A stretch of 64,000 nucleotides of DNA from Cyanobacterium sp. Dongsha4 (lineage in GTDB: Bacteria > Cyanobacteriota > Cyanobacteriia > Cyanobacteriales > Cyanobacteriaceae). A program made the translations under genes and the position numbers. Below the pieces are notes generated by a model. The model was given only the letters and a program-made list of their open reading frames with translations. It made no database searches and was not told the DNA's origin. Positions 7,401 through 43,844 of this stretch are shown one piece after another. The first letter of the stretch is position 1. Every line of letters starts with the position of its first letter. The stretch covers positions 2,121,326 to 2,185,325 of the forward strand of contig NZ_CP084098.1 in NCBI RefSeq assembly GCF_036345015.1, read 5' to 3'.

Positions 7401-8092
7401 GAATCGATCGCTCTTTGTAACAAGTAAAATTGTTGATGTAAGTAATTACTATCAATTCCATTTTCGATAATGTCGATTATTTTGTGAATAAAGCTAAAAG
7501 TTTCATCATGGAAAATATCAGAATTATCCGTATAAAAACCTACTAAATAAACACTTCCTAGTTGAGAATTTGTGAAGGAAAAATTTAACCCTTTTTGGAT
7601 ATTTTTATGATTAAAATCGAGCAATTTAATTACTTCTAAGTTATTATCAATAAAATATCTTCTTGTTTGAGAGTATTTATCTCTAAGTAAGGAAAGAATA
7701 TTATCTATGACAGACTTTTCTACATTAATTTTGTTCCAGTTTTCATCCGAGAGCAAATAATAAATAGAAGATTGATTGTCTTTATCAAACCAGATAAAAT
7801 AACTTAACTCTAAACTCAAATCCAGATGAATAATTCTGATTAACTGCTGAAAAATATCCAAATTTCCTTGAGGTATAACTTGGAATAAAATCTCATAGGC
7901 AGAAATAATATTTTCTTTATGTTGTAACTTATATTCTAATTGACTTCTAATTGTTTCTATCTGATAGTTTTTTTTCTTATATTCCAAATACTGCTTTCTT
8001 AACTGAGTATTTTTTTTATTTAAAAGATATATTATGTAGAAACAGAAACAAATTAAAGATATTAATAAAATTAAAATAAAAGCATTCTGCAT
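4427..8092 (-). CDS. LOV blue-light sensor with GAF, PAS, degenerate GGDEF and intact EAL domains
   Basis: This 1221-residue signalling protein has, in order: a membrane segment (4-24); a coiled stretch and a weak GAF-like region (65-215); a LOV domain (224-338); a GAF domain (370-515); two PAS domains (about 535-655 and 665-785); GGDEF (790-955); and EAL (970-1221). The LOV domain has the flavin-adduct motif GKNCRFLQ with Cys270, an FWN asparagine, and NFIGIQNDIT with the signalling glutamine. GGDEF reads SSDEF (873-877) and lacks an inhibitory RxxD, so cyclase activity is doubtful. EAL keeps E1001-A-L, DDFGTGYSSL (1123-1132) and EGIETE, so c-di-GMP hydrolysis is expected. LOV-GGDEF-EAL receptors are known in cyanobacteria. 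Prediction: a blue-light-controlled c-di-GMP phosphodiesterase. It is a single-gene unit. Confidence 0.9.
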   Translation of the reverse strand: MQNAFILILLISLICFCFYIIYLLNKKNTQLRKQYLEYKKKNYQIETIRSQLEYKLQHKENIISAYEILFQVIPQGNLDIFQQLIRIIHLDLSLELSYFIWFDKDNQSSIYYLLSDENWNKINVEKSVIDNILSLLRDKYSQTRRYFIDNNLEVIKLLDFNHKNIQKGLNFSFTNSQLGSVYLVGFYTDNSDIFHDETFSFIHKIIDIIENGIDSNYLHQQFYLLQRAIDSCRNGVIITSAQEGNSIIYVNKGFENITGYSFEEIKGKNCRFLQQNDEQEGERKLFREAIKNKESQKIVLRNYRKNGELFWNEVYVSPVYNQEGEVINFIGIQNDITDKYITERKLLKKTEEIETLNKQLNLVNKLNNLPNQNLQQVFNYYLKEITKILDLDVAIISEVFGNRINIIASYNRFSGNLENNIYLQTNELVNYLSTKVVKQQQIINTDFLKKDKFLINKLDEFNIYCYLGIPIFIDRKIYGVLHFFNVNQNETNSDYSDSLIDSISQTISRIIISQEIELEKEQISVALKESQERLYDILSSLDDVIWSIHPQTLQLTYINQAGEKLFQTSLSKILKKRTYWLDLVNPQDKQKVQEYYANLFSISLLGDEIKYHDIEYGIILENGTEKYIRDRANIVYDEKGKKLRIDGILTDITSRTITKQALEKSEQEFRLIFELAPIGMIITDFDGNILQVNHSLCDLLKYSAIDLLNKNEATFYHPDDQEKSSFFKHKIITENLDQYSEERRFLASNGSIVHTIVNITALRNNEDKIIQFIQQIVDISELKIMEQQIFYDAFYDKLTGLPNRFLLTDRLKQFFYIRKYDSQKQCAILLIDMDKFKKINDSLGHKIGDELLRIIADKIVDCVTEKDTVARISSDEFIVLLPDITLEKEVYDIVEEIRLACLFNTTLQNQEVYSSVSIGVTLSSFGYKKPEEMIRDADIAMYHAKGKGGNCYQVFSASMHTDLLKRLNLESALVKALENEELELYYQPIINLKTGIIAGFEALIRWHSPSLGFISPAEFIPIAEETSLIIPLGNWILSQAIKQIEKWEKKYPNLELFIAVNVSSKQLLHPNFLPELDHILEENNIDRKLLKIEITESILMDNFEYAKEVLEQIQERNLKISLDDFGTGYSSLSYLHRLPFNTLKIDRIFIQPLTSTNMSSPIVEAIVNLAHNLSLDVVAEGIETEIQAQILKNINCNYGQGYLYSRPVNEGDADNLIKQWS

Positions 8093-8585
8093 ACTAAGAT
8101 TATGATTTGTTATGAAAATATATAATTAATTAAGAATGCAAATAAAAATTGATTGTTTATTAAAGATGAGAACATCACCTAGAATAAAGATATATTACTT
8201 GCTGAAACACAAGAAAATGAAAGTAATTTAAAGTTATTTAAAACTATTTTACTATTTTGATATTTGTCTTATTTTGTCAACAATTGCAATATTTTATTCT
8301 TTCTTCTAATAATATGTGATAATTTATTTTTGTTCTTAATAGCATAAGGATATTGTATCAAAATTAAGACGCTAAAGTTGCGAATAATTCCATAAGAGTA
8401 ATAATACTTTGACAAAGCGTCAATATTAGATTTCTTGCAGAAGTTAGGTAACAATCAAAAAATCGACTCTAACCCCATAGAAATTGATTTTAATTTTAAT
8501 TTTGCATTTGTATTTTAAAAGTCTGTTCGTCATTGGAATAAGATATAATTGAGTGTTTGGGGTAAAAAATAAAGCAATACAACTT
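8093..8585. other. gene-free spacer between the LOV protein gene and obgE
   Basis: A roughly 490-base A+T-rich spacer between divergent genes, expected to hold both promoters. A 61-codon minus-strand frame at 8269-8454 has no ribosome-binding site or recognisable protein features and I do not call it. No repeats or hairpins stand out. Confidence 0.6.
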
Positions 8586-34318: not shown

Positions 34319-35426
34319 ATGGAATTATCAGAACTAAAGAAAGATATAAGCACAATCTCTGAGCGCCTGGGTAAAACTCAGGACTATCTTTGACTTACCT
34401 AATCTCAACGCAAAAATTAGGGATTTAGAACAAGTTGCCGCACAACCAGAATTTTGGGAAACAGGAGAAAAGGCACAGGAAACTCTACAGCAATTAAATG
34501 ATTTCAAGTCTTTATGGGATACATTTCATCAATGGCAAAGTAGTTTGGAAGATACGAAGGCGATTGTTGAGTTGTTAGAGATGGAATTAGACTCAGAATT
34601 ATTTAACGAGGCTCAATGTAATTTAAAATCTCTTGCCCAAGATTTAGATAAATGGGAATTACAGCAATTATTGAGTGGAGTTTATGATCAAAAAGGTGCT
34701 ATTCTAACAATTAATGCTGGTGCTGGTGGTACAGATGCTCAGGATTGGGCGCAAATGTTATTAAGAATGTACACCCGTTGGGCGGAAAATCAGAATTATC
34801 GGGTAACTTTGACGGAACTTTCCGAAGGGGATGAGGCAGGGATTAAGTCGGCAACTTTAGAGATAGATGGAAAATATGCTTTTGGTTATCTGAAGGGAGA
34901 AAAAGGGACTCATCGTCTAGTCAGAATTTCTCCTTATAATGCCAATGGAAAGCGTCAAACGAGCTTTGCTGGGGTGGATGTGATGCCTAGTTTGGGAGAG
35001 GAAGCCATTAAGGTTGATATTCCTGAAAAAGATTTAGAAATCACTACCTCTAGGGCAGGGGGGAAAGGAGGGCAGAATGTTAATAAGGTGGAAACGGCGG
35101 TGAGAATTGTTCATATTCCCACGGGTATAGCGGTCAGATGTACTCAGGAGCGATCGCAACTTCAAAATAAGGAAAAAGCCTTAGCTATTTTAAAGGGTAA
35201 ACTTTTAGTTATTTTAGAGGAACAAAGGGCAAAAGCGATCGCAGATATTCGAGGGGATATAGTAGAAGCCGCTTGGGGTAATCAAATAAGAAATTATGTG
35301 TTTCATCCTTATCAATTAGTAAAAGATGTGCGCACCAATGTGGAAACAACCGCCGTCGATGATGTTTTAGATGGTAATTTAGAGGCTTTTATTGAAGCAT
35401 ATTTGAGGGAAGGCACAAATAATTAG
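34319..35426 (+). CDS. prfB: peptide chain release factor 2, expressed by programmed +1 frameshift
   Basis: RF2 ends translation at UGA and UAA. The ATG at 34319 opens a 24-codon frame that stops at an in-frame TGA (34391-34393) in the slippery context CTT TGA C. A +1 shift joins it to the long frame from 34392, giving about 368 residues. The GGQ motif for peptide release is in [14 protein letters not shown], and the stop-codon reading tripeptide is in [15 protein letters not shown] (SPY where SPF is usual). Treating the main frame as starting at 34545 would lose the N-terminal helical domain. The self-regulating frameshift senses RF2 level (established for the family). Confidence 0.93.
34379..34394 (+). 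promoter_or_regulatory. RF2 programmed frameshift site
   Basis: CAGGACTATCTTTGAC: an internal AGGA Shine-Dalgarno-like element, then TAT CTT TGA C, where the ribosome slips on CTT into the +1 frame. Spacing and sequence match the classic prfB site. Confidence 0.92.
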
Positions 35427-35641: not shown

Positions 35642-37840
35642 ATGGGAAACATCGTCGGAATTGACTTAGGCACAACCAACTCCGTTGCCGCCTTTAAATT
35701 TGCAGAAGCACAAGTCGTTAATGACCCTAAACATGGCACTTTAGTTAGATCTGTGGTATCTTTATCTAATAATAGTTTAATAGTAGGTCAAGAAGCCTAT
35801 AATCAGCTATTACAAGATCCAGAAAACGTCATTATCTCCATCAAACGCTTAATGGGGCGTGGTTTTGGGGATGATGTGGTGCAACAACAGTTAAAAAACT
35901 TCGGTTATAAGATTACTCAATCCAGCGAAGGCACAGAAAACAGTATCTCTGTGTGGTTAGGAAGCAAAGAATATCAACCCGAAGACATTAGTGCAGAAAT
36001 CCTCAAACAAGTAGTTAAAAATGCCCAAGCCTATCAGGAAAATATGGGGCAAACGGGCAATATTACTAAAGCCGTTATCACTATACCTGCTTACTTTAAT
36101 GATAAACAACGTTACGCTACGGAAATCGCCTCTGTGAGGGCTGGTTTTGGAAAACCTATTTTATTACCTGAACCCACTGCGGCGGCTATTTCCTACGGTT
36201 TTAAGCCCGATAGCGATGATGTAAAAACTATCTTGGTATATGATTTTGGAGGCGGTACTTTTGACTCATCTTTAATTACGTCTGCTGGAAGTCAGTTTAT
36301 CGAGTCGGGTAAAGCAGGAGATTTATGGTTAGGGGGAGATGATATTGATAACAGATTAGGGGAATTAGTTAAGCAAAAGGTAGCGAAGGAGGAGGGGTTA
36401 GATAATATAGATGGTTTAATCGCTAATATGCCCTATTATCAACAAGTTAGATTTAAAGCGGATTTGAAAATTGCGACGGAAAGGGCAAAAATTGATTTAA
36501 GCAGTAAAACCGAAGGGAAGATTAATCCTTCTACTCCTCTCCTTGATGAGTTTGGTATGGCTATCCCCATCGATGTAACCATTACAAGGGCAGAATTTGA
36601 GTACATGATTTTGCCTTTGGTGAAGCGTAGTATCGAAATTTGTCACGATGCCATTAAATATTCTGATTATCCTGCGGATATGATTGATATGGTGTTGATG
36701 GTAGGAGGTTCAAGTCAAATACCATTGGTACAAGAGGAGGTGAAAAAGGCTTTTGGAGATGATAAAGTAGTAGTGCATCCTCGCCCTATGTATGCTGTCG
36801 CAGAAGGTGCTGGTATTGTGTCTGCAGGTGTGACGGAAGTGGTTGGCACTGTATCCCGTGATTATTGTATCCAATTAGTGGATGATCCTCGTTATCAATT
36901 AATTAAGCAAGGGGATGTTTTGCCCATTCAAAAGAATCATACTTTCAAAACGGAAGGGGAAGGGCAAGAATTAATCCATTTTAAGTTTTTTAGCCCTGAT
37001 GAGGTAAGGGAAGCCATTGATTTACGCAAAAATGATGAGCGTATTGGGGATATGTGGTTGGCGTTGGATAAGCCCTATCCAAAAGGAACAGAAGTTGATG
37101 TGATGGTAGAATTAGATGAGCAAAATTCTGCTTTAACCATGACTGCTTGTCTGAAAAATAATCCTTCTATTCGGGTTAGTGGTAGTTTTTCTAGGGGTAA
37201 TCATGATGAAAAAATCAATCAAAAAGTGGAGGAGTTAATTCATAAACTCAATGAGGAAGGTGAATTAACGGAAATTGGGGTGCAACGTGCCAATGAATTA
37301 ACAGGTGAGATTGTAAGGGCTTCAAATCAAATATATCTTAATGGGATTTTACAACGGGATAGACAACAGGTAGCCGAAGAAAAACTTAAGGAATTAGAGG
37401 CTTTTGCTTGTGGCGATCATGACACTATCTTGATGTATTTAAGAGATTTCAATTTTGCCTTAGAATTCTGTTCTCATATTATGCATGAGGATCAAGTTAA
37501 CCGCCTAAAAAATTTAGTGTCAGAAATGCAGACGGCGGTTGATACCAATAATATTTCAGGGATGCAGAGATTAGCAGAAGATGGTAGTCGGGAATTTGAT
37601 AATTTACCTGATTTAGTGCGTATTCTCTTGTTAATTCGTTTTGGTGTTGCCCGTGCCTGTCGTATTGCACCTGCACACGGTAAGGTTTTGGAAAGCAAGT
37701 TTATCAATCTTCTCGATGCGATGGAAAGGGGAGATGGTAATACGGGTGATCGCCTCTATCGTGAATTATTAGAGGAAATACGAGAATACATTGATCAAGA
37801 TTTACCCACAGGAGTTGTTGCCACTGGCTTAACCCGTTAA
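35642..37840 (+). CDS. non-canonical Hsp70 chaperone (first of two)
   Basis: A 732-residue Hsp70 with an intact ATPase domain: GIDLGTTNS (6-14), catalytic lysine K68 in IKRLMGR, PAYFNDKQR, DFGGGTFD (201-208) and VGGSSQIP (354-361). A DnaK-like substrate domain begins about residue 410, but KNHTFKT and FSRGNHDEK differ from housekeeping DnaK. The last 200 residues are helical and acidic, and the C-terminal EEVD/DnaK tail is absent. It is the first gene of a six-gene same-strand cluster ending in a GrpE-like gene. The ATPase half is almost identical to that of the second Hsp70 at 41160. It should be the active partner of the pair (inference). Confidence 0.9.
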   Translation: MGNIVGIDLGTTNSVAAFKFAEAQVVNDPKHGTLVRSVVSLSNNSLIVGQEAYNQLLQDPENVIISIKRLMGRGFGDDVVQQQLKNFGYKITQSSEGTENSISVWLGSKEYQPEDISAEILKQVVKNAQAYQENMGQTGNITKAVITIPAYFNDKQRYATEIASVRAGFGKPILLPEPTAAAISYGFKPDSDDVKTILVYDFGGGTFDSSLITSAGSQFIESGKAGDLWLGGDDIDNRLGELVKQKVAKEEGLDNIDGLIANMPYYQQVRFKADLKIATERAKIDLSSKTEGKINPSTPLLDEFGMAIPIDVTITRAEFEYMILPLVKRSIEICHDAIKYSDYPADMIDMVLMVGGSSQIPLVQEEVKKAFGDDKVVVHPRPMYAVAEGAGIVSAGVTEVVGTVSRDYCIQLVDDPRYQLIKQGDVLPIQKNHTFKTEGEGQELIHFKFFSPDEVREAIDLRKNDERIGDMWLALDKPYPKGTEVDVMVELDEQNSALTMTACLKNNPSIRVSGSFSRGNHDEKINQKVEELIHKLNEEGELTEIGVQRANELTGEIVRASNQIYLNGILQRDRQQVAEEKLKELEAFACGDHDTILMYLRDFNFALEFCSHIMHEDQVNRLKNLVSEMQTAVDTNNISGMQRLAEDGSREFDNLPDLVRILLLIRFGVARACRIAPAHGKVLESKFINLLDAMERGDGNTGDRLYRELLEEIREYIDQDLPTGVVATGLTR

Positions 37841-37855
37841 TTGTAAAAAAAAATT

Positions 37856-37881
37856 GTTGGGTTACACGTTGTTAACCCAAC
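37856..37881. repeat. REP-like palindrome (GTTGGGTTA...TAACCCAAC)
   Basis: A 9-bp perfect inverted repeat with an 8-base spacer and CCTACAA on its right side. It resembles the TTGGGTT...AACCCAACCTAC hairpins dispersed in cyanobacterial genomes (family knowledge). It sits in the gap after the first Hsp70 gene and could trim or attenuate downstream mRNA. Confidence 0.6.
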
Positions 37882-37903
37882 CTACAAAAATTATGGAGTT
37901 TTT

Positions 37904-38113
37904 ATGACTGAGAAAATGAAGGAAAAATTTGATTATCATTCTATTGATTTAGACAAGGTAAAAATAGAGAAAGAAATACCTAATGAAAATAAAATAGTTG
38001 TTGGTAATATTACATATTCTCAAGAGACTATTTATGTTAATAGTTTTATCAAAAAGGTTTTTCCAACAATTCATTTTTTCTTGGGTATATGTGTAAGTTT
38101 TCTTTCTTTTTAA
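37904..38113 (+). CDS. small protein with C-terminal hydrophobic tail (69 aa)
   Basis: A well-placed GGAG ribosome-binding site lies about 5 bases before the ATG. The first 48 residues are charged (MTEKMKEKFDYHSIDLDKVK) and the last 20 form a hydrophobic tail (VFPTIHFFLGICVSFLSF), as in tail-anchored membrane proteins. No known domain. It lies between the Hsp70 and LysM genes in the same direction, 38 bases before the next gene, which makes it likely to belong to the same system. It could also be a decayed fragment. Confidence 0.5.
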   Translation: MTEKMKEKFDYHSIDLDKVKIEKEIPNENKIVVGNITYSQETIYVNSFIKKVFPTIHFFLGICVSFLSF

Positions 38114-38151
38114 ACAACAAAAAATAATCTTCTTTATTAAGATAAAATAAT

Positions 38152-38682
38152 ATGACTGAAAAATTAACTTGTCCAGTGTGCGATCGCACCGAAATTGACA
38201 CGAATATTTGTCCTAATTGTGAGACAGATTTATCTACTATTAGACTGTTAAAAGAGTTGCCACAAATAGAAGAAAAAGACCAGAAAAAGTCACAAAAGTT
38301 ATTGATAATTACTTTAGCTAGTGTGTTAATAATGGGTTTATTAGTAGGTAATGTAACAGGGTATTTTGTCTCAAGAAATAACTTTAATAACCGTTTACAA
38401 GTCATTAATCAGGAAAATAATCAATCCGTAGGGATAGCAGAAAAACCAGAAGTAATTAAACCCGAATTAAACTGGTGTGGAGGCTTTAATTATCGAGTTA
38501 AATCTGGTGATTCTCTTTATATGTTAGGGTTACGTTTTTATGGAGATAGTGACGGTTGGCAACTAATTTTCCACGCTAATCCCAGTATAAATGATCCTAA
38601 AAATCTACAAGTAGGGCAAGTAATTTTAATTCCGAATTTAACCGAATTATGTCAAACTAATCAATCTTATTTGCAGAGGTAA
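38152..38682 (+). CDS. zinc-ribbon, membrane-anchored LysM protein
   Basis: 176 residues in three parts. An N-terminal zinc ribbon (C7, C10, C20, C23) is followed by one membrane segment (about 49-71, LLIITLASVLIMGLLVGNVTG). A LysM domain (113-161) has YRVKSGDSLYMLGLRFYGD and QVGQVILIPN. The likely topology is ribbon inside and LysM outside, touching peptidoglycan. This gives the chaperone cluster a possible anchor at the envelope. It is 5 bases from the helical-repeat gene, which indicates cotranscription. The role is inferred only. Confidence 0.85.
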   Translation: MTEKLTCPVCDRTEIDTNICPNCETDLSTIRLLKELPQIEEKDQKKSQKLLIITLASVLIMGLLVGNVTGYFVSRNNFNNRLQVINQENNQSVGIAEKPEVIKPELNWCGGFNYRVKSGDSLYMLGLRFYGDSDGWQLIFHANPSINDPKNLQVGQVILIPNLTELCQTNQSYLQR

Positions 38683-38687
38683 TAAAT

Positions 38688-41138
38688 ATGAATATATTTA
38701 AAAGACTTAATATATTTTGGAATAATATCAAAAAAACATTTCCTTTATATAGACAATATAGATATTGTTTAACCTATAGCAATGATTTAAGACAATTACG
38801 AGAATTAGCAGTTAGTATTGAACAAATCTGGTTAAATACTAAGTATCAAAATAAATATATTTTTCTCCATAGTTTGGTTAATAAATTCATTTCAAATATT
38901 CAAAACAAGAGGTTAGAATATAGTAAAAAAATTACCACTGCAGAAAACTGGGTTGCAGAAGCAAATAGAATTTTTGAATTTATAAAAGATGATCCTTTTA
39001 ACATTAATGATTTATCTCAAGCTATTAATTTATATCATAAGGCAAATGAGCTTTTCTTCGACAAAAATTTTATGATTAGTGAAGATAATTTAAGAGAAAT
39101 TTTAGCGAATCGCAAAAAATTTATTAACCTTTATCAAAAGGGAAAAGAAAAAGCTAGTCAGGGATATTATAAAGAAGGATTATCATTATTAAATGAAGCA
39201 AAAAATCTTTTTTATCCTGATAAATTAGCCCGAAGAATTAGTCAATTTCAAGACAAAATAAAATTTGAGGAAGAGTATGAAGAAAATTTACTCAAAACTA
39301 AAGAATTAGCCAGAGAAGGTAATTTTCTTTCTGCTTATAATCAACTGCAATTAGCCTTAGATAAATTTCAGCGTCAAGATGGTAATGAATTGAGAGAAAA
39401 GTTACAGATAGTTATTGATGCAAAAACTGATTATCGACAGGGTTTAATGGCAGAAAAAATAGATAATTTTCTCCTTGCAAAAAAACAATATTTATCGGCT
39501 TTATCTAAATTACCTCAGTTAACTGACGCTAATTATCGTTTAGCGTTGATTGATATTAAACAACATAATTTTACTTCTGCTTTATCTTACTTAGAGAATT
39601 TAGAGGAAGAAAAGGCAAGTTATTTGAGAGGTTTTATTTATCTGCAAAAAAATGACTATCATAATGCGGTAAAAGAATGGAAATTAGTGAATAATTCTCT
39701 TGTAAATAATGACAAAGAATCACTAAAAACCCTAATTCAAAGAAACAAATTACAAATCATCAAACATATCGAAGATTTAGTTAGTGAGGAGAAGTATCAA
39801 GAAGCAAAAATTTGCTCTGAAAATCTCCTCAAACAATACGGTTATGATCCTAAAATAGACCATAATTTAAACAAGCATATTCAACCTGCTTTACAGCATC
39901 AATTATGGCAATCTCAAGATTTAATTCAGATTATAACTCAATTAGAGCAGGAATTTAAACAGAATCCTAATTTAACTACTTTACATAATATGGTGATCGC
40001 ACTTTATTATCAAGCCCAATTAGATGAAAATTATATCGAAAGATGGATTAATTGTTGGATGACAGTATTGTTAAATATCAACAAAAGTGAGGTTTTTCAG
40101 AATCTATCTTGGTTGAATGTGAAAGAGATTAACTATGATAAAATGAGGGATGATTTGATTAAAATAGTAGAAGGTGCGATCGACAAATATAAAGATAATA
40201 ACCTAGATAAATATTATCAATTTAGGGATATATTGAGAAGGGAAAATCTAGCTTTAGAATTAATCGGTAATCCTCCTAAGACGGGAATAAAAATCAAACA
40301 AATATTTATCACTCCCGGATTTTATCTACAACATCAAACACAATTAAAAAGCATTCAATTAAAAACAGATAAACTGTCAACTTTATTTACTGATTGGGGT
40401 TTAGCCGTTGCCGCTTGTCTGAAAAACGATACAGAAAGGGCGATTAAAATTAAACCATCTCAACAACATTCATCAGGAGTAGAAAAACTAGCCTATCATT
40501 TAATCAACTATTATGAGGGGTGTTATTATCTCCAACATCATAGCTGGAGAAAAGCAAAAAATCCCTTAGAAATTTCTCAAACAGAAATTAAAAATAATCG
40601 TGATTGGGTGACAAATATTAATAATCTCTGTGAAAAACAAAGACAAAAAATAGAGGAAAATAAAGAACATTTAGAGTTTGCTCAATTCTGGTATGATTTA
40701 TTAAAATCAAATCAATCCGCTAGTTATTTAGCAGAATTTAAAGCGAGGGAAATTTCTCAACAAGTAGCTGATGATAAAATATCTTTTTCTCAAGCTATAA
40801 ATAAACTAAAAGATGTACAAAATATTGATAAAAATAATCCTTTAGTTATAGATTTATTGAGTAGATTAGAATATAGTATAGAAGCCGAAGAAGTTAGTAA
40901 ATTAATTCAACAAAATAAATTTGAAGAAGTAGTTAGAAAATTAAAATACTCATCTAATCAAGAATTAAAATATAATGTAGCTTCCATGTTTATTGAAGCG
41001 GTAATTAAAGGTGCAAATAAGGCTTATTTAACCTATGAAGAAAAACAGGGATTAAGGGATATTGCTTATTGGGCGTATCAAATTTGCCCCTATGAATCAG
41101 ATTTTCAAGAAATTTATCGTGCTTTAGGAATTATTTAG
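38688..41138 (+). CDS. large TPR-like helical-repeat protein
   Basis: 816 residues, almost wholly helical. TPR-like units are visible (ASQGYYKEGLSLLNEAKNLF, LAREGNFLSAYNQLQLALDK, YLQKNDYHNAVKEWKLVNN, LVSEEKYQEAKICSENLLK), about every 34-45 residues, with later less regular repeats. There is no membrane segment and no catalytic motif. Ends 21 bases before the second Hsp70 gene and starts 5 bases after the LysM gene. TPR proteins often serve Hsp70s as cochaperones or scaffolds; here that role is inference from position. Confidence 0.8.
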   Translation: MNIFKRLNIFWNNIKKTFPLYRQYRYCLTYSNDLRQLRELAVSIEQIWLNTKYQNKYIFLHSLVNKFISNIQNKRLEYSKKITTAENWVAEANRIFEFIKDDPFNINDLSQAINLYHKANELFFDKNFMISEDNLREILANRKKFINLYQKGKEKASQGYYKEGLSLLNEAKNLFYPDKLARRISQFQDKIKFEEEYEENLLKTKELAREGNFLSAYNQLQLALDKFQRQDGNELREKLQIVIDAKTDYRQGLMAEKIDNFLLAKKQYLSALSKLPQLTDANYRLALIDIKQHNFTSALSYLENLEEEKASYLRGFIYLQKNDYHNAVKEWKLVNNSLVNNDKESLKTLIQRNKLQIIKHIEDLVSEEKYQEAKICSENLLKQYGYDPKIDHNLNKHIQPALQHQLWQSQDLIQIITQLEQEFKQNPNLTTLHNMVIALYYQAQLDENYIERWINCWMTVLLNINKSEVFQNLSWLNVKEINYDKMRDDLIKIVEGAIDKYKDNNLDKYYQFRDILRRENLALELIGNPPKTGIKIKQIFITPGFYLQHQTQLKSIQLKTDKLSTLFTDWGLAVAACLKNDTERAIKIKPSQQHSSGVEKLAYHLINYYEGCYYLQHHSWRKAKNPLEISQTEIKNNRDWVTNINNLCEKQRQKIEENKEHLEFAQFWYDLLKSNQSASYLAEFKAREISQQVADDKISFSQAINKLKDVQNIDKNNPLVIDLLSRLEYSIEAEEVSKLIQQNKFEEVVRKLKYSSNQELKYNVASMFIEAVIKGANKAYLTYEEKQGLRDIAYWAYQICPYESDFQEIYRALGII

Positions 41139-41159
41139 TATATTTTTATTTGTTTAATT

Positions 41160-43310
41160 ATGGGAAACATAGTCGGAATCGATTTAGGCACAACTAACTC
41201 CGTTGCCGCTTTCAAATTGACAGAGGCACAAGTAGTTAATGATCCTAAACATGGCACTTTAGTTAAATCTGTGGTATCTTTATCGAATAATAGTTTAATA
41301 GTAGGTCAAGAAGCCTATAATCAACTATTACAAGATCCAGAAAACGTTATTATTGGCATCAGGAATTTATTAGGGCGTAGTTTTTCCGATCAAATAGCAC
41401 AGATATACATAAAGACATTTGGTTATAAAATTACCCCTTCCACAGAGAATAAGGAAAATATATCTATTTGGCTTGGCGGTAAAGAGTATCAACCAGAAGA
41501 TATTGTCGCAGAAATCCTCAAACAAGTGGTTAAAAATGCCCAAGCCTATCAAGAAAACATGGGGCAACCGGGCAATATTACCAAAGCCGTTATAACTATA
41601 CCTGCTTACTTTAATGATAAACAACGGTACGCCACGGAAATTGCCTCTGTGAGGGCTGGTTTAGAAAAACCCGTTTTATTACCTGAACCCACGGCGGCGG
41701 CTATTTCCTTCGGTTTTAAGCCCGATAGCGATGATGTTAAAACCATCTTGGTATATGATTTTGGAGGCAACACTTTTGACTCAACTTTAATTACGTCTGC
41801 TGGAAGTCAGTTTATCGAATCGGGTAAAGCAGGGGATTTATGGTTAGGGGGATATGATATTGATAACAGATTAGGGGAATTAGTTAAGCAAAAGGTAGCG
41901 AAGGAGGAAGGATTAGATAATATAGATGGTTTAATCGCTAATATGCCCTATTATCAACAAGTAAGGTTTAAAGCGGATTGGAAAATCTATATCGAAAGGG
42001 CAAAAATTGATTTAAGTAGTAAAACGGAAGCGAAGGTTAATCCTTCTACTCCTCTCCTCGATGAGTCTGGTATGGCTATCCCCATCGATGTAACCATTAC
42101 AAGGAAAGAATTTGAGGCGATGATTTTTCCTTTAGTGAAGCGTAGTATCGAAATTTGTCACGATGCTATTAAATATTCTGATTATCCTGCGGATATGATT
42201 GATATGGTTTTGATGGTGGGAGGTTCAAGTCAGATACCATTAGTACAAGAGGAGGTGAAAAAGGCTTTTGGAAATAATAAAGTAGTAGTGCATCCTCGCC
42301 CAATGTATGCTGTTGCCGAAGGTGCAGGTATTGTGTCTGCTGGTGTCACGGAAGTGGTTGGCACTGTTTCCCGTGATTATTGTATCCAATTAGTGGATGA
42401 TCCTTGTTATCAATTGATTAAGCAAGGAGAAGTTTTACCTATTCATAAAATTGTAACTTTAAAAACTGCTTCAGAAGGAAAAAGACTAATTCGTTATCAG
42501 CTATTTAGCCCCGGTGAGGTAAGGGAAGGCATTGATTTACGAAAAAATGATGAGTTTTTAGGTAATTTATGGTTTATTTTAGATCCATCATATTCCAAAG
42601 AAACCGAAATAAATTTGATATTGGAATTAGATGAAAGAAATTCTGCTTTAACTATTACTGTCACTCTCAAGGATAATCTTTCTATACCACTTAATTCTAT
42701 TTTTTCTAGGGGTGATAAAAGAGATGAAATTTTATTAGAAATTGACAGAATATTAGATCAATTAAAAAAAAAGAGTTGGTATAGCTTTTTAAATTTAGCT
42801 TATGACATAGCAATTCAAACAACTAAATTATACATAAATGAAACATTACAAACAAAAATTTTACAAGAAATTGAAGAAAAATTAAAGGATTTAAAAAATA
42901 TGATAACTTCCCTAAACAATAACAATAATCTAAGTCAAATGAAATCTACTTTGTACCATCTAAATATAATGCCTAATCCTTATGATGTTTTAGAAGTATC
43001 TCCTGCAGCTTCTAATGCAGAAATAACCAAAGCCTTTGCAATGGCAATGAAGAAAAAGAAATATAATCCTAAACAAATTGCCGAAGCCAGAAAGCAATTA
43101 ATGGATAGTCAACAACGTTTGATAGCAGATTTTCTTCGCCCTAATTTGCCCTTAATTCAACGGTTAAAATATTATGATTTATCCCCTTTAAATGAACCTA
43201 TACCTATGATTAATTTAATCCCTGAATTTGATAATTTAGATCAAGCATATCAAAATACTGAAATAATCACAGAAGAAGATAAAAAAATAGGACAAGAATT
43301 ATTTAATTAA
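41160..43310 (+). CDS. second Hsp70, ATPase-substituted and fused to a J-like domain
   Basis: 716 residues. The ATPase domain is nearly the same as in the first Hsp70 but differs at key sites: the catalytic lysine is R68 (IIGIRNLLGR), and the phosphate loop reads DFGGNTFD (N204 for Gly). Divergence from the first copy begins near residue 420. After a short substrate domain and a coiled linker (about 540-600), residues 606-660 resemble a J domain (NPYDVLEVSPAASNAEITKAF), but HPD is absent; the corresponding stretch is KKKKYNPKQIAEAR. It may be an ATPase-poor regulator of the first Hsp70 (inference). It is 51 bases before the GrpE-like gene. Confidence 0.88.
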   Translation: MGNIVGIDLGTTNSVAAFKLTEAQVVNDPKHGTLVKSVVSLSNNSLIVGQEAYNQLLQDPENVIIGIRNLLGRSFSDQIAQIYIKTFGYKITPSTENKENISIWLGGKEYQPEDIVAEILKQVVKNAQAYQENMGQPGNITKAVITIPAYFNDKQRYATEIASVRAGLEKPVLLPEPTAAAISFGFKPDSDDVKTILVYDFGGNTFDSTLITSAGSQFIESGKAGDLWLGGYDIDNRLGELVKQKVAKEEGLDNIDGLIANMPYYQQVRFKADWKIYIERAKIDLSSKTEAKVNPSTPLLDESGMAIPIDVTITRKEFEAMIFPLVKRSIEICHDAIKYSDYPADMIDMVLMVGGSSQIPLVQEEVKKAFGNNKVVVHPRPMYAVAEGAGIVSAGVTEVVGTVSRDYCIQLVDDPCYQLIKQGEVLPIHKIVTLKTASEGKRLIRYQLFSPGEVREGIDLRKNDEFLGNLWFILDPSYSKETEINLILELDERNSALTITVTLKDNLSIPLNSIFSRGDKRDEILLEIDRILDQLKKKSWYSFLNLAYDIAIQTTKLYINETLQTKILQEIEEKLKDLKNMITSLNNNNNLSQMKSTLYHLNIMPNPYDVLEVSPAASNAEITKAFAMAMKKKKYNPKQIAEARKQLMDSQQRLIADFLRPNLPLIQRLKYYDLSPLNEPIPMINLIPEFDNLDQAYQNTEIITEEDKKIGQELFN

Positions 43311-43361
43311 ATAAACTCTTAAAACTATCAATAAAACATAAAATAACAACAAAGCAAAATT

Positions 43362-43844
43362 ATGGAACAATATCAAGAAAACTTACAGCTATCCTTACAA
43401 CAAAGAGATAAATTATTAACTGAAATAACTCAATTATTGAAAAGCAAGACAAAATTAGAGCAAACTGTCAAAATCCAGCAACAGGAAAACGAAGCAGAAA
43501 ATGAGGCTTTATATAGTGAATTATTGGATATATTTGATAGTTTAGAGTTTTTAATTAATTATTTAGATAGTAATTTGCAAGAAGAAAACTTTAACCCCAA
43601 AGCCTTTAAAAGATTGCCTAAATTTGTCGGCAGTATGCAAGAAAAGTTATTAACTATTTTATCCCGTAGAGAAGTAGAAAAAATCGATTTTAATGGGGTG
43701 ACTCCTGATTTTAGTATCTGTAAAGTGGTAGATAGAGAAATTCGGGAAGATATACCAGAACAAACTATCACAAAAATTGTCCGTCAAGGTTTCAAAATTA
43801 AAGAAAAAGTATTGCGTTATGTAGAGGTGATAACAGCTAAATAG
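43362..43844 (+). CDS. GrpE-like nucleotide exchange factor
   Basis: 160 residues: an N-terminal coiled coil (5-60) followed by a compact C-terminal part that follows the GrpE pattern of LLTILSRREVEKIDFNGVTP and TITKIVRQGFKIKEKVLR. Overall similarity to canonical GrpE is low, so it is probably specialised for the Hsp70s of this cluster. Last gene of the set. Its presence strongly suggests that at least one of the Hsp70s cycles nucleotides. Confidence 0.75.
   Translation: MEQYQENLQLSLQQRDKLLTEITQLLKSKTKLEQTVKIQQQENEAENEALYSELLDIFDSLEFLINYLDSNLQEENFNPKAFKRLPKFVGSMQEKLLTILSRREVEKIDFNGVTPDFSICKVVDREIREDIPEQTITKIVRQGFKIKEKVLRYVEVITAK

Follow-up and report, generated by a model that had tools for sequence, protein, structure and literature searches.

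A conserved cyanobacterial five-gene cassette encoding a putative membrane-tethered Hsp70 machine without HPD

To our knowledge, control of Hsp70 proteins by the HPD motif of a J-domain is treated as universal. The mitochondrial import motor, which is composed of mtHsp70, Pam18/Pam16, Tim44, Mge1 and Zim17, resembles the cassette reported here in having a membrane-tethered Hsp70, a GrpE protein, a J-like subunit that is devoid of HPD, a scaffold and a protein with a zinc ribbon; however, the scaffolds and zinc ribbons of the two are not known to be homologous, and the cassette includes neither an HPD partner, which is Pam18 in the import motor, nor a linked translocase gene.

The DnaK1-DnaJ3-GrpE machine of type IV pilus motors (McDonald et al. 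2022, PMC9239167) is similar to the cassette in that it is cyanobacterial and combines a dedicated Hsp70 and an envelope-linked task with a TPR element (there in DnaJ3) and GrpE. By contrast, it works with another Hsp70, with a DnaJ and with the single housekeeping GrpE of N. punctiforme, it has no zinc-ribbon/LysM anchor, and DnaK1-DnaJ3 is reported in nearly all motile cyanobacteria (PMC9239167) whereas the cassette is sporadic. As to an HPD partner of the DnaJ3 type, the J-like protein linked in the cassette is without HPD. The single GrpE of N. punctiforme suggests that this species lacks the cassette. HscC-DjlB/DjlC of E. coli also resembles the cassette, i.e. a specialised Hsp70 with its own J proteins, a sporadic distribution and a suspected membrane-linked task (PMC8215388). 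However, HscC probably has no GrpE partner, its ATPase is stimulated by DjlC, its allostery residues are, according to a review, identical or conservatively replaced (all PMC8215388), and its described subunits include neither a TPR nor a zinc-ribbon/LysM protein.

We analysed a window of 64,000 nucleotides, which is part of the 4.3-Mb genome of Cyanobacterium sp. Dongsha4. A preliminary description had proposed that a six-gene cluster in this window encodes a dedicated, self-contained chaperone set with two non-housekeeping Hsp70s. We confirmed the six open reading frames (ORFs) at the coordinates given there, all on the + strand; however, the core set comprises only five genes, which encode an Hsp70 (HspA), a zinc-ribbon/TM/LysM anchor, a TPR solenoid, a J-like protein and a GrpE-like protein (Table 1), and neither a 69-aa ORF nor the second Hsp70 belongs to this core. 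Outside the cluster, the same genome encodes three canonical DnaKs, a single canonical GrpE and no fewer than five clear J-domain proteins; therefore, the cluster exists alongside a complete housekeeping machine and, with its conserved neighbourhood, agrees with the idea of a dedicated set. As previously stated for this locus, no named precedent is known to us: we found no published description of this composition in the open-access literature.

Table 1. Positions of the cassette features in the window
Feature	Position	Strand	Evidence or remark
hspA, non-canonical Hsp70, 732 aa	35642..37840	+	Pfam HSP70, residue alignment; orthologue heads 47/48 five-gene loci
Anchor protein, 176 aa: N-terminal CPVC...CPNC zinc ribbon, one TM helix, C-terminal LysM	38152..38682	+	
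TPR-like helical solenoid, 816 aa, no Pfam family	38688..41138	+	Cyanobacteria-only in collections searched
hspB, Hsp70 duplicate with degenerate ATPase motifs, fused to J-like domain	41160..43310	+	Alignment, residue check
J-like domain, C-terminal part of hspB, no HPD	42963..43307	+	~120-aa stand-alone gene in most relatives
GrpE-like nucleotide-exchange factor, 160 aa	43362..43844	+	Pfam GrpE

The search probe was the 816-aa TPR protein, since no other part of the cassette is as specific. Homologues were detected in 18 of 60 relatives, in 30 of the 386 genomes of a phylum sample (two of the 30 being weak) and at 40 named GTDB loci, all of which are cyanobacterial, with hosts that include Geminocystis, Anabaena, Nostoc, Calothrix, Chamaesiphon, Spirulina and Planktothricoides. 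Reading the neighbourhoods directly, with known duplicates removed, we found all five families at 48 of the 62 loci examined, all 48 being cyanobacterial, while the others represent contig ends, split genes or decayed copies; thus, conservation in no genome but this one is strongly contradicted. The order Hsp70 - anchor - TPR - J-like - GrpE on a single strand holds at 47 of the 48 five-gene loci, the sole exception being a distant genome of the phylum (L149) in which all five genes are kept and the anchor gene is shifted to the front. At these loci, genes usually overlap or lie a few bases apart (median intergenic gaps -4, -4, 13 and 2 bases). Moreover, the pairwise evolutionary distances of the five proteins correlate (r 0.68-0.90), and dN/dS between the two species of the window genus is 0.08-0.36 across the five genes, i.e. 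they are under purifying selection. Within the 386-genome sample, the HspA-type C-terminus, TPR and J-like families share ~25 genomes, barring contig-edge genomes and decayed remnants; the genome-wide probe consisted of two peptide patterns and, therefore, distant non-cyanobacterial relatives may be missed. Judging by these genomic patterns, we conclude that the five genes are an all-or-none module inherited as a set and under selection, and that chance is excluded.

Remnant cassettes are present at L092 and L093 and in genomes G414, G397, G133, G148 and G166. Genome G058 carries two cassettes and a third, fragmentary copy (L042, L043, L052); in one of these cassettes hspA is split, and no GrpE gene was detected beside it. 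A search for a conserved sixth neighbour gave none beyond clade-level synteny, and the flanking genes, which vary between clades and are housekeeping genes in the window, indicate no client. A search for the CIRCE heat-shock element found none, and promoter and terminator scans gave nothing above chance. After the first Hsp70 gene, an imperfect palindrome, GTTGGGTTAACAACGTGTAACCCAAC, spans window positions 37856-37881, and the sister species has a similar sequence at the same place.

Both Hsp70s of the cluster match Pfam HSP70 (309 and 275 bits). HspA scores under the NCBIfam cut-offs for dnaK (TIGR02350; 295 vs 822 bits) and HscA (236 vs 708 bits). The catalytic residues of the ATPase (D8, T11, K70, E171, D194, G196-G198 and T199) are kept in all 48 HspA orthologues, duplicates included; the numbering is that of DnaK, taken from a transcribed E. 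coli sequence, and agrees with the 2kho alignment. In DnaK, the J-domain is contacted through R167 (by D35 of HPD), L391 (by H33) and E217 (by other J residues) (PMC13012618), and residues of the interdomain linker are required for ATPase activity and allostery (PMC6843406). The LLLD linker (VLLLD in DnaK) is absent from all 48 HspA proteins, duplicates included; among 41 non-redundant orthologues, L390-D393 and E217 are lost in every one and R167 in 40, mostly in favour of E, with I in the window HspA. A conserved TVSRDY segment stands where the linker would be. With regard to nucleotide exchange by GrpE, the residues of the K55-E267 bridge differ in HspA, K55 being replaced by Y in 40 of the 41. 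HspA is without the usual contact points of the J switch and, therefore, looks like part of an undescribed machine that may work under different rules.

The J-like domain at the C terminus of HspB matches Pfam DnaJ at 23.2 bits, under the cut-off of 27.8. A model of J-like residues 1-57 (block pLDDT 83-95) has a J-type fold in which the loop between helices II and III is shortened, and the Foldseek matches of the model in the PDB are mostly J domains, including the DnaK-complex structure 5nro, with a probability near 1 and E > 0.01. None of 59 J-like proteins contains HPD, and the window domain reads NPK instead. The histidine is never present; about half of the proteins retain D at the aspartate position and, therefore, some residual J-type contact is possible. 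By residue alignment, both sides of the classical J/Hsp70 contact are gone, and the ATPase site is kept. The standard Hsp70/J cycle previously envisaged for this locus is unsupported because HPD, R167 and the LLLD linker are all missing.

The J-like gene of the sister species stands alone as an ORF of 120 aa, and homology between this gene and the window region begins only near the J-like part. HspB is 77% identical to HspA over 586 aa, and nucleotide identity between the two genes is patchy (61% at 200-300, about 90% or more over most of 400-1300); as read from this pattern, hspB mixes gene-converted stretches with stretches that diverged long ago. HspB carries the substitutions K70R, R71N and G198N, and the catalytic-residue test fails at K70 and G198. 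Thus, of the two proposed non-housekeeping Hsp70s, both belong to the family, but the second was rejected as an independent member of the system, as it arose by local duplication and is fused with the J-like gene. A comparable fusion is present in one Nostocaceae-type genome (G338, L148), and Geminocystis GBBB08 has the start of a related Hsp70 copy followed by the contig end; the phosphate motifs are degenerate in both. These cases suggest that a pseudo-Hsp70 bears the J-like domain in some lineages.

Structure prediction gave an all-helical solenoid for the 816-aa protein (mean pLDDT 89), and the closest solved folds belong to TPR proteins, among them P58IPK, a co-chaperone of Hsp70; therefore, the label TPR-like, which it had already been given, is right. 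The GrpE-like protein was also correctly recognised: it passes Pfam GrpE (59.9 bits vs a cut-off of 25.8), and its gene is present at every locus with all five genes.

LysM is a peptidoglycan-binding domain in other proteins. The anchor matches Pfam LysM at 33 bits, its N-terminal four-cysteine zinc ribbon is invariant, and a simple hydrophobicity test called a TM helix in 54 of 56 anchor ORFs. LysM is absent in several lineages, in which the anchor has 66-74 aa and consists of zinc ribbon and TM helix only. Of the earlier proposal that LysM tethers the system to the envelope, the constant zinc ribbon and TM helix thus stand, and LysM as the essential tether was rejected; since LysM is dispensable in these lineages, wall binding is not the core function. 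Positive charges tend to precede the TM helix, and this bias, which is modest, suggests that the zinc ribbon lies inside the cell. Some TPR proteins start with a hydrophobic helix. Moreover, the J-like proteins of Planktothricoides, Leptolyngbya Prado105 and strain SU2 contain a TM helix and a SPOR-like region, the SPOR match being over the Pfam cut-off only in Leptolyngbya Prado105. Peptidoglycan-binding-family domains are therefore joined to two different subunits, which supports a location at membrane and wall. Extended J-like proteins with a TM helix and repeated SPOR-like regions are encoded at L048:11456-12925, L084:1792-3330 and L085:9131-10354.

The 69-aa ORF between hspA and the anchor gene (37904-38113), previously counted as a small tail-anchored sixth member, was rejected: it matches no significant Pfam family and has no homologue even within the genus, where the same gap holds a different short hydrophobic ORF. 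Short hydrophobic ORFs in the Hsp70-anchor gap are seen in the window and at L035 (about 7990-8160) and L037 (about 7960-8120); those of genomes G001 and G008 are alike, and the window ORF is unlike them.

The reading that we favour, with reasonable though far from full confidence, is that the cassette encodes a dedicated Hsp70 machine that is tethered to the membrane, is controlled independently of HPD and acts on a client of the envelope. From the linkage of the genes we infer that the cassette proteins would interact physically. The five-gene machine would sit on the inner membrane, at its cytoplasmic face, where the anchor, with its tail in the wall, would recruit HspA directly or via the TPR solenoid. 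The TPR protein would act as a scaffold or as an adaptor for the client; the J-like protein may be an adaptor or a brake, like the HPD-less Pam16, rather than a classical ATPase trigger; and the GrpE-like protein is the predicted cognate exchange factor. Hydrolysis by HspA would be coupled to the client by another route, i.e. through the TVSRDY segment that replaces the linker together with partner contacts. In the window species, the fusion of an ATPase-degenerate HspA copy to the J-like protein would give a pre-assembled Hsp70/pseudo-Hsp70 pair. The client probably belongs to the envelope or is associated with the cell wall. By analogy with the mitochondrial import motor, we also entertain, tentatively, a trans-envelope motor that holds or pulls its client; such a motor would have abandoned HPD/R167 control on both sides and would use the HPD-less adaptor, the TPR scaffold, a zinc-ribbon anchor extending into the wall and the cassette's own GrpE.

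Alternatively, the cassette could be a satellite of the housekeeping DnaK system for a particular client; it would recruit ordinary DnaJ and GrpE, and HspA would work normally. The canonical J proteins and GrpE encoded in the genome would be available for this, and the DnaK1-DnaJ3-GrpE machine on type IV pilus motors is a known cyanobacterial case (PMC9239167); however, HspA has neither the R167 nor the linker on which an HPD J-domain depends, and all five-gene loci have their own GrpE-like protein, which makes this explanation unlikely.

We consider it quite improbable that the cassette is an antiviral or conflict system in which an Hsp70-based regulator resides in defence islands. ZorA-ZorB-ZorC adjoin the cassette in Spirulina CS-785/01, where prokaryotic viperin is also present at the locus, in Planktothricoides SR001 and in an Oscillatoriales MAG; restriction genes of types I and IIG lie next to it in two relatives; and its distribution is sporadic with decayed copies. 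However, defence genes lie near about 4 of 20 loci vs a few among 20 regions drawn at random from these genomes, which in this contrast of aggregate family counts, rather than a per-locus test, is no clear enrichment. Moreover, none of the five cassette proteins matched a PADLOC model, a search for plasmid or viral copies of the TPR gene found none, and the window neighbours are housekeeping genes. A defence role is a weak lead. The ZorA-ZorB-ZorC genes are at L047:12678-18213, L048:233-4951 and L080:1-3266, with no ZorD noticed nearby, and at L047 the viperin gene lies between the Zor genes and the chaperone cassette.

Finally, that the cassette is a decaying relic of little function, as the remnants in several genomes and the degenerate motifs of HspB might indicate, is highly improbable and for intact loci already contradicted by the dN/dS of 0.08-0.36 in the window genus, the invariant catalytic residues in 48 HspA copies and a gene order preserved across the phylum.

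As a dedicated membrane-tethered Hsp70 machine, the cassette would indicate an unstudied envelope task of cyanobacteria and supplies a genome marker for it. Moreover, a conserved operon-like cluster without R167, linker and HPD but with an ATPase site offers a natural test of alternative ways to drive an Hsp70.

A second odd Hsp70/GrpE-like pair is encoded in the same genome (L118:4132-8521; C1:2779131-2783520). It consists of a 1046-aa NYN-Hsp70 fusion, in which PF01936 scores 23.5 bits, just under the cut-off of 24.2, and a neighbouring 399-aa protein with a weak GrpE match. In the window, a release-factor-2-like gene (34545-35426, 293 aa) is readable only from a TTG start; presumably, it is subject to a programmed frameshift, as in other prfB genes.
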